A stretch of DNA of 64,000 nt, taken from positions 1 to 64,000 of the forward strand of contig CABZGO010000004.1 in the NCBI GenBank assembly GCA_902525355.1, given 5' to 3'. The translations under genes and the position numbers were made by a program. Source of the stretch: an uncultured Pelagibacteraceae bacterium. GTDB taxonomy: Bacteria; Pseudomonadota; Alphaproteobacteria; Pelagibacterales; Pelagibacteraceae. Under the pieces are notes generated by a model. It did no database searches, was not told the DNA's origin, and saw only the letters and a program-made list of their open reading frames with translations. Position 1 is the first letter of the stretch, and each line of letters opens with the position of its first letter. Shown here piece by piece: positions 32,420 through 38,945 of the stretch.

Positions 32420-32695
32420 TTAGAGCAAAATACCTTCTAATTTTAGCAATTTTCTCTTGGTATTTACTCCGCCTTTACCTGAATAACCACCTAAAGAGCC
32501 ATCTGACCTAATTACCCGATGACAAGGTATTTTTGGAGCATATGGATTTTTTCCTATGGCATTTGCTACAGCTCTTGCTGCTTTTGGCTTTTTGATTGCA
32601 TTTGCTACTTGAGAATATGTCCTTACCTGACCTTTTGGTATAGTTCTCAGATATTTCCAAACTTTTAATTGAAATTTTGTACCTTTTAGGATCAT
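32420..32695 (-). CDS. MGMT-family DNA alkyltransferase, single C-terminal domain
   Basis: 91 residues corresponding only to the DNA-binding and active-site domain of O6-methylguanine-DNA methyltransferases. Helix-turn-helix with R41 in AARAVANAIGKNP, catalytic C58 in IPCHRVI, and SLGGYSGKGGV. The Cys is kept, so it is not an alkyltransferase-like (Trp) protein. The N-terminal RNase H-like domain of Ogt/Ada is absent, and no remnant is apparent upstream, where a folded RNA lies instead. It starts only 6 bases after that RNA's terminator T-run. Confidence 0.85.
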   Translation of the reverse strand: MILKGTKFQLKVWKYLRTIPKGQVRTYSQVANAIKKPKAARAVANAIGKNPYAPKIPCHRVIRSDGSLGGYSGKGGVNTKRKLLKLEGILL

Positions 32696-32701
32696 AAAGA
32701 G

Positions 32702-32745
32702 AAAAAAACTCTGTTTCCTTGCACCTTTTCAGGTACAAAGAACAG
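32702..32745 (-). terminator. Intrinsic terminator of the structured RNA
   Basis: On the minus strand a stem of about 15 pairs (5' arm from CTGTTC at 32745, 3' arm ending GAAACAG at 32711, one bulged A) closes a GAAA tetraloop and is followed by AG and seven T (32708-32702). This is a textbook Rho-independent terminator between the RNA and the MGMT gene; read-through could still feed that gene. Confidence 0.85.
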
Positions 32746-32884
32746 TAGTTTTGGCACGTCGTTTTATGCGCTACCGCCATGCCTTCCACTCTACAATTTT
32801 AGCGCTACTCTGCAGAGTTTTCTGCCCTCTGGGCTTGAACCTCTCGGTTTTTCCCCAGATGGTCAGTTAAGAGTTGCCTCTTAA
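32702..32884 (-). ncRNA. Candidate structured RNA of about 183 nt, family unknown
   Basis: Much richer in G and C than its surroundings, and folded on the minus strand. In order: TTAAGAG-GCAA-CTCTTAA (32884-32867); TCTGGG/CCCAGA (32859-32854 with 32833-32828) enclosing AACC-GAGA-GGTT; GCAGA-AAAC-TCTGC (32825-32812); GGCAT/GTGCC (32783-32779 with 32757-32753); then a terminator hairpin. Three hairpins end in GNRA tetraloops in this strand only, which fixes the strand. A TATAAA box (32894-32889) would start transcription near 32882. I do not recognise tmRNA, 6S, SRP or RNase P signatures; marine IMES-type RNAs are a possibility. Confidence 0.7.
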
Positions 32885-32991
32885 TTCATTTATAACATTA
32901 TCAGATAGAGTAGGTTGTATGTATCACTTTATCGTTGAATATTATTAGTTTTTAACAGGTATGAATAGTGGGGATAACTTAAACTTAAGCT

Positions 32992-33465
32992 TTAAGTAAA
33001 CCATCTGAAACCCTCATACATTGCAATTCCGTAAATTGAGTGTCTGATTAAAAACATAATTGATGTTTTAATGGGTATTCCAGTCTTATTTGCAAATACG
33101 CCCTGTCCTGTAAATGGTAGAAATATCAGCAATGGAGCTAATGTTGTAAGAGCTCCAAATATAAAGCCTGAAATATATGTCATTTTTAGACCTACCATAA
33201 AAAAACAAAAATAATAGATTACAGCCCAACAAATCGATACATAATAGTGAAAAATCCAACCCAATAAGACCTCATACCTAAAATTGGGCATTTGAGTAAT
33301 GTTTGGGTTATAAAAAGTAGCATTTTTAAGCATATAATAAGTCCATCTTCCAACAATTCCCCACGATGGTTCCGGAATACCCATCAATTTGAGTAAATAA
33401 CCAAGAATATCAAGAATTATGCACGAAAATACCCCAGCAACTAAAATACTAATTATATCTATCAA
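32992..33465 (-). CDS. DUF2938-family membrane protein
   Basis: 157 residues, four predicted helices. Family markers are the D-I-L-G-Y-L-L segment, WGIVGRWTYYM, F-R-Y-E-V-L-L-G-W-I-F-H-Y-Y and FLPFTGQGVFA followed by a conserved H near the end (IRHSIYGIAMYEGF). Function unknown for the family. Start is TTG at 33465, with its GAGG ribosome site overlapping the stop of the small gene upstream, so translation is probably coupled. Confidence 0.8.
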   Translation of the reverse strand: MIDIISILVAGVFSCIILDILGYLLKLMGIPEPSWGIVGRWTYYMLKNATFYNPNITQMPNFRYEVLLGWIFHYYVSICWAVIYYFCFFMVGLKMTYISGFIFGALTTLAPLLIFLPFTGQGVFANKTGIPIKTSIMFLIRHSIYGIAMYEGFRWFT

Positions 33466-33718: not shown

Positions 33719-34636
33719 ATGAATGATATAATTTCAGACGTAAAAAAACTTGAGTTGGAAACAATCAATAACCTTAAAAGTTCTAAGGCTATTAATACTG
33801 TGAGAGCTTATGAATCAGATTTTAAAGATTTTAGTTTATTTTGTTTAAAAAATGGTCTCCAATATCTCCCTACTGAGCCTAAAATTCTCTCTATTTATTT
33901 AACACATTTATCTAAAACTAATAAATTCAGTACTTTAAAAAGAAGAATAGCATCAATTAAAGTTATTCATAAAATGAAAGGTCATTATTTGGATGCTAAA
34001 CATCCAATTATAATGGAAAATCTATTAGGTATTAAAAGAATTAATGGATCTTATCAGAAGTCAAAAAAACCATTATTAATTAATGATTTAAAGCTAATAC
34101 TTAATGTTATAGATGAGAAAGAAAAAAATGAGTATAAAAGAGTAAGAAATAAATCATTAATATTATTAGGGTTCTCAGGGGGGTTTAGAAGATCAGAACT
34201 CGTAAATATCGAATTAGATGATCTAGAATTTGTGAATGAAGGTCTAAAAATTTTCATAAAAAGATCAAAAACAGATCAAGTTGGAGAAGGTAGTACAAAA
34301 GCTATACCCTACTTCATAAATACTGAGTATTGCCCAGTAATTAAACTTAAAGATTGGATTAATTATAGAAATATTAAAAGTGGCAAAATATATGAAATTT
34401 CAGACAAATCAGTTTCTCTAATAATTAAAAAGTATGCAATATTAGCCGGGTTAGACTCAAATAAATATGGTGGACACAGTTTAAGGTCAGGGTTTGCTAC
34501 TGCAGCTGCAGAATCGGGAGCAGATGAGAGAAATATAATGGCAATGACTGGACATAAAACAACTCAAATGGTTAGAAGATATATAAAAGAAGCCAACCTT
34601 TTTAAAAATAACGCATTAAATAAGATTAAAATTTAA
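33719..34636 (+). CDS. Tyrosine-type site-specific recombinase/integrase
   Basis: 305 residues. A SAM-like core-binding domain (residues 20-105; NTVRAYESDFKDFSLF) precedes a catalytic domain with the full set: R157 in GFRRSEL, K184 in KRSKTDQ, H253-x-x-R256 in GGHSLRSGF, H279 in TGHKTTQ and Y288 in RRYIKE. It is more like mobile-element or plasmid-type integrases than XerC/XerD, which I judge from the N-terminal domain; the housekeeping role cannot be excluded. It borders the glycosyltransferase block and has the inverted repeat in front. Confidence 0.92.
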   Translation: MNDIISDVKKLELETINNLKSSKAINTVRAYESDFKDFSLFCLKNGLQYLPTEPKILSIYLTHLSKTNKFSTLKRRIASIKVIHKMKGHYLDAKHPIIMENLLGIKRINGSYQKSKKPLLINDLKLILNVIDEKEKNEYKRVRNKSLILLGFSGGFRRSELVNIELDDLEFVNEGLKIFIKRSKTDQVGEGSTKAIPYFINTEYCPVIKLKDWINYRNIKSGKIYEISDKSVSLIIKKYAILAGLDSNKYGGHSLRSGFATAAAESGADERNIMAMTGHKTTQMVRRYIKEANLFKNNALNKIKI

Positions 34637-38687: not shown

Positions 38688-38945
38688 TTATTTACTCATA
38701 TATTGACTTTTAATTTTATTACGTAGTCTGTAATTTTTTTTTAATTTATATTCTTCTCTCATAGCCGTAATTTTTTCATTATACTTCTTATAATAAATTA
38801 GTTTCCAAATATTACCTTTTGTATATTTAGCGCCCTTTGAATTATTGTGAAGGTGCAATCTTTTTTCAATGTTATTAGTATAACCAACATAAGATCTAAA
38901 TTTGTTGTGTTTTTTTGATAATATTAGATATACATAATATACCAT
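38688..38945 (-). CDS. GIY-YIG nuclease-domain protein
   Basis: 85 residues of the UPF0213/YhbQ type: YYVYLILSK (GIY), SYVGYTNNIEKRLHLHN (YIG, catalytic Arg) and a late E in REEYKLKK. Single-domain GIY-YIG proteins of this group have uncertain roles in DNA repair. Found here inside the glycan block, so it may be a marker of mobile or variable DNA. Confidence 0.85.
   Translation of the reverse strand: MVYYVYLILSKKHNKFRSYVGYTNNIEKRLHLHNNSKGAKYTKGNIWKLIYYKKYNEKITAMREEYKLKKNYRLRNKIKSQYMSK

Follow-up and report, generated by a model that had tools for sequence, protein, structure and literature searches.

An IMES-2 family RNA in a Pelagibacteraceae genome: anatomy, promoter and host range

The locus and its assignment to IMES-2

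The window, i.e., the whole stretch of 64,000 nucleotides analysed here, belongs to an uncultured Pelagibacteraceae bacterium. On its minus strand it carries a structured RNA between a one-domain MGMT gene and a gene for a DUF2938 membrane protein. The features of the region are the following.

32420 to 32695, minus strand: one-domain MGMT (Pfam PF01035 only, PCHR motif), outside the RNA unit, context not conserved in other genera
32702 to 32888, minus strand: IMES-2 RNA, approximately 186 nt with terminator (RF02035 match; ends placed from the -10 element and the U-run)
32702 to 32751, minus strand: intrinsic terminator, a 3' hairpin (-23.1 kcal/mol) with GAAA loop, and U7
32753 to 32783, minus strand: hairpin P5, its loop containing the putative kissing element B (UAGCGC, 32773-32768); 88.8% of alignment cells paired
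32788 to 32818, minus strand: hairpin P4, its loop containing the putative kissing element A (GCGCUA, 32805-32800)
32822 to 32866, minus strand: long hairpin P2/P3, interrupted by a symmetric internal loop (GAAA/CAAG) and capped by a GAGA tetraloop
32867 to 32884, minus strand: hairpin P1, capped by a GCAA loop; paired in 99.8% of cells, with changes on both sides at 5 of 7 pairs
32895 to 32903, minus strand: extended -10 element TGnTAtnnT, in the window TGATAATGT (alignment of 53 dereplicated upstream regions)
32921 to 32938, minus strand: upstream box 2, TCAACNANNAAGTGATAC, located at the -35 position or slightly upstream of it; imperfect dyad (ATCA..TGAT), conserved in all gene contexts
32960 to 32977, minus strand: upstream box 1, similar to TTATCCMC-N3-WTTCACA, in the window TTATCCCCACTATTCATA, conserved across four gene contexts
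32992 to 33465, minus strand: DUF2938 membrane protein (Pfam PF11158), stops just short of box 1, outside the RNA unit
33719 to 34636, plus strand: tyrosine recombinase (PF00589), same gene at about 47 IMES-2 loci

The MGMT protein (91 aa) retains the DNA-binding/active-site domain and is missing the usual N-terminal domain, a form that is widespread in the genus. The tyrosine recombinase is a constant neighbour in this genus (g1) and marks the border of a hypervariable region: the gene beyond it varies by genome (glycosyltransferases and others). An ORF for a GIY-YIG nuclease (PF01541, 85 aa; 38688-38945, minus strand) lies within the accessory region.

A cmscan search with Rfam 15 finds IMES-2 (RF02035) at 32751-32891 on the minus strand, covering model positions 1-141 with 166.2 bits (E = 6.5e-44). 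The match exceeds the gathering cut-off of 54.7 bits over the full model length and thus places the RNA within a known marine family. No other Rfam family appears in a 401-base stretch around the locus at E values up to 1, and 6S RNA (RF00013) yields no match at E ≤ 1. The initial annotation had called the RNA unidentified and placed it in "the IMES group, or new"; the first option turned out right, and the RNA is neither unidentified nor new. Its remark that the transcript is not a tmRNA, 6S, SRP or RNase P RNA or a common riboswitch agrees with IMES-2 as the sole match. Membership is further reflected in a covarying consensus structure and in the marine origin, the named matches all being Pelagibacteraceae or Pelagibacterales records.

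The minimum free energy of 32698-32891 on the minus strand is -73.6 kcal/mol, compared with a mean of -45.75 in dinucleotide shuffles (n = 200; z = -6.55), and none of the 200 shuffles folds as well. The plus strand folds less well (-52.9, z = -3.26). The heavily folded minus-strand RNA proposed earlier is borne out by these values, and the three GNRA loops then named (GCAA, GAGA and GAAA, the last being the terminator loop) do occur in that strand only. The minus-strand structured RNA is a real, full-length IMES-2 member and not a new family.

To our knowledge, IMES-2 is an orphan marine RNA in Rfam whose function is not known, and a literature search returned no usable report on its function. 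Its original description reportedly presented it as an abundant transcript in ocean metatranscriptomes. A paper on the giant squid mentions that IMES-2 had been described from marine metagenomes, and regards it as a likely contamination in the squid data (PMC6962438). In comparison with the Rfam family, the window RNA gives a full-length match and keeps all consensus helices. Promoter, terminator and the predicted kissing helix, on the other hand, fall outside the Rfam covariance model, and the family is here assigned to named Pelagibacteraceae genomes.

Covariation and a predicted loop-loop contact

The initial annotation had suggested a covariation analysis as a check. We built our own covariance model from 25 diverse copies and searched it against 99 sources, which gave alignment A2. 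When the Rfam helices plus the pairing of loops A and B are laid over A2, 94.9% of the cells are paired and 34 of the 45 pairs show double changes; control structures slid along the alignment reach 33-41% paired cells. The covariation score is 0.380; shuffles reach 0.164, and slid versions do not exceed 0.084. P2/P3 is paired in 94.9% of the cells, with double changes in 13 of 15 pairs, and P4 in 98.4%, with double changes in all six outer pairs. Covariation among the 99 relatives supports every helix of IMES-2, as well as the A-B pairing.

TAGCGC elements lie at 32807-32802 and 32773-32768 (minus strand), and their repetition had been taken as a hint of a pseudoknot. Loop A (32805-32800) and loop B (32773-32768) can be joined in a six-base-pair helix with 98.4% of the cells paired, although alignment A2 was fitted to the nested helices and not to this pairing. 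Double changes occur at three of the six pairs (C-G to U-A, G-C to A-U, G-C to U-A); pairs 94-132 and 95-131 changed three and four times, respectively, on a tree from which those columns had been left out. Because loops A and B covary, the pseudoknot guess is supported, in the form of a loop-loop (kissing) contact, which the original authors may have drawn. The kissing element is nearly palindromic, so that the helix could also form between two molecules (dimerisation); the covariation fits an intramolecular and an intermolecular contact alike.

At the 3' end, a hairpin at approximately 32751-32709 is followed by U7 at 32708-32702, and the near-perfect intrinsic terminator read from the sequence before is thus confirmed. 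A hairpin with T-run is present at 72 of 98 IMES-2 loci and at 3 of 98 shuffled ones. At the other 26 loci, most of which belong to the MnmA context, the hairpin is retained and a pyrimidine-rich tail takes the place of the T-run.

Promoter, gene contexts and distribution

Transcription probably starts at about 32888-32886. The initial annotation had taken TATAAA (32894-32889) as the promoter box; this motif is not conserved in relatives, and the conserved extended -10 element sits just upstream of it. Within 464 kb scanned, box 1 has only two sites above threshold, and boxes 1 and 2 occur together only at IMES-2. Box 1 resembles two DnaA-type boxes in tandem at a distance of 10 bp (in other genera, TTATCCACA...ATTCACA), and IMES-2 could be controlled through it by DnaA or a different factor. 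Due to this resemblance, the locus was tested as oriC. This reading was rejected, since the sampled GC-skew minimum of genome G015 is near 0.3 Mb, far from the RNA at 1.339 Mb. Box 2 has a single exact copy in its own genome; a box-2 regulon there was likewise discarded, as allowing two mismatches gives six further sites and the reversed control pattern gives five, which is the level of chance.

The IMES-2 unit, from the promoter boxes to the terminator, is found in four unrelated gene contexts with the same promoter elements throughout (apart from the Pfam-scanned window proteins, the neighbours are named from our reading of the sequences). In g1, which includes the window, recombinase and DUF2938 lie on one side and MGMT on the other. 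In g5, g6 and g9 the unit sits between MnmA and a membrane protein on the opposite strand, in g2 between a thermonuclease-like gene and an SRAP peptidase on the opposite strand, and in g8 between SelO and RmuC. The DNA-repair and recombinase genes pointed out in the initial annotation are indeed present, but they are not conserved partners, because the unit adjoins different genes in other genera.

Complete g1 genomes without IMES-2 still have MGMT. In several g1 negatives, the same upstream gene abuts MGMT and the unit from box 1 to the terminator is wholly missing; the absence from complete relatives holds with both the Rfam model and our own. Given the four unrelated neighbourhoods and the flanks that abut without the unit, IMES-2 is free-standing and not a leader of MGMT. 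The clean absence of the whole unit from related genomes points to a conditional function, which is dispensable within the family. An MGMT tree requires at least three changes between presence and absence of IMES-2 and thus suggests repeated loss; it is a tree of one short gene, which recombination may blur, and three of its negative rows (L091, L107, L108) carry IMES-2 elsewhere in the genome. As a separate observation, a hydrophobic ORF of approximately 55-60 aa (MGxIDGxI...) directly precedes MGMT at L092, L093, L097, L099, L101, L102, L104 and L106, all without IMES-2, and precedes the RNA in some IMES-2 genomes.

Of 397 Pelagibacterales species genomes, 200 contain IMES-2, with one copy each. 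The carriers belong to six genera of family f1, and none to family f2. A sample of 385 alphaproteobacterial genomes yields three matches, all in f1, and in these genome samples IMES-2 is not found outside Pelagibacteraceae. Exact-pattern matches in a collection of named genomes are likewise all from Pelagibacteraceae or Pelagibacterales, with a pattern that favours close relatives. Members from g2 and g8 are strongly diverged (62-95 bits). Diverged copies hidden in the negative genomes were considered and rejected, as our own model gives nothing below an E value of 0.2 there. The pattern has no match in IMG/VR and blastn none in phages or plasmids, so that carriage by phages or plasmids was dropped as well.

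IMES-1 is a marine structured RNA without known function from the same discovery effort. In contrast to IMES-2, it (RF02034) has no match over the cut-off in 97 Pelagibacterales searched and none in the window's own genome; mutual exclusion with, or replacement by, IMES-1 was therefore rejected. Another RNA from this group of organisms, the fourth of the SAR11 motifs in Meyer et al. 2009, is a three-stem junction flanked by SAR11_0635/0636 and likely a separately transcribed RNA with variable neighbours (PMC2704228). IMES-2 shares with it the likely status of a separate SAR11 RNA and the variable neighbours, whereas structure and flanks differ.

Candidate modes of action

We propose that transcription proceeds from about 32888, off the extended -10 element and the two dedicated boxes, which would bind one or two regulators, and ends within the U-run, at position 32702. 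The RNA would fold into four hairpins plus terminator, with the loops of P4 and P5 locked by the six-base-pair kissing helix. Such a compact scaffold would act in trans by binding a protein, i.e., a regulator, a ribosome factor or RNA polymerase, whose activity would be altered under the condition that turns on the IMES-2 promoter. Transcription and trans action are deduced from the sequence; conditional expression is suggested by the two dedicated upstream boxes. On balance, we consider it probable that IMES-2 is a free-standing small RNA and a protein-binding trans regulator, and our doubt concerns mostly the mechanism and not the identity.

Outside the kissing helix, the longest conserved unpaired runs measure 4-5 nt. 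Hfq (PF17209) was found in none of 20 Pelagibacterales, while the same search is positive in five controls including Caulobacter and E. coli. 6S RNA (RF00013) was found in none of 41 Pelagibacterales, again with a search that is positive in Caulobacter and E. coli. Taken together, the short unpaired runs and the missing matches for Hfq and 6S favour protein binding over antisense action.

Some sRNAs act without Hfq, and regulatory sRNAs typically come, as IMES-2 does, as free-standing units that have a terminator and a promoter of regulated appearance. IMES-2 might thus be a trans antisense sRNA which pairs with mRNAs independently of Hfq, by its loops or its 5' end; once the kissing helix opens, targets could be reached by the 5' end or by the flanks of the loops. 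However, nearly all residues lie within conserved helices, and no conserved accessible run of at least 6 nt occurs outside the kissing helix. For an Hfq-dependent mode, neither an encoded Hfq in the 20 genomes nor a conserved unpaired seed was found. We hold antisense action to be unlikely.

A bolder reading, which we regard as quite improbable as a whole, is that in this lineage, with neither Hfq nor 6S RNA detected, IMES-2 would be a dedicated and tightly regulated RNA acting on a global protein machine, e.g., RNA polymerase or the ribosome; its loss or retention would then separate ecotypes of SAR11, the most abundant bacteria of the ocean. Still less credible is a Pelagibacteraceae stand-in for 6S RNA that binds RNA polymerase. 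Pelagibacterales may lack 6S, or their 6S may be of a kind that the RF00013 model does not capture, and IMES-2 resembles 6S in length (approximately 186 nt), in being free-standing with its own promoter and strong terminator, and in being structured throughout. But it consists of four serial hairpins and not of one long, bulged, open-promoter-like hairpin with a central bubble, RF00013 does not match, and many relatives have neither IMES-2 nor 6S.

Hardly tenable is a cis leader or attenuator of the downstream MGMT. In the window, and in most relatives of its genus, the distance from the end of the terminator to the MGMT start codon is indeed only 7-20 nt. But there are four contexts in place of a constant co-oriented downstream gene, and this rules out any conserved cis role; in g5, g6, g9 and g2 an unrelated gene follows, encoded on the other strand, and many genomes keep MGMT without IMES-2.

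Novelty is modest, as the family is known, with new anatomy, host range and genetics. Added here are the Pelagibacteraceae hosts, the unit boundaries, the kissing contact supported by covariation, the two-box promoter and pairs of genomes with and without the RNA. Box 2 provides a search handle for the regulator of IMES-2. With hosts, boundaries and presence/absence pairs with matching flanks at hand, the function of IMES-2 becomes testable between close SAR11 strains.
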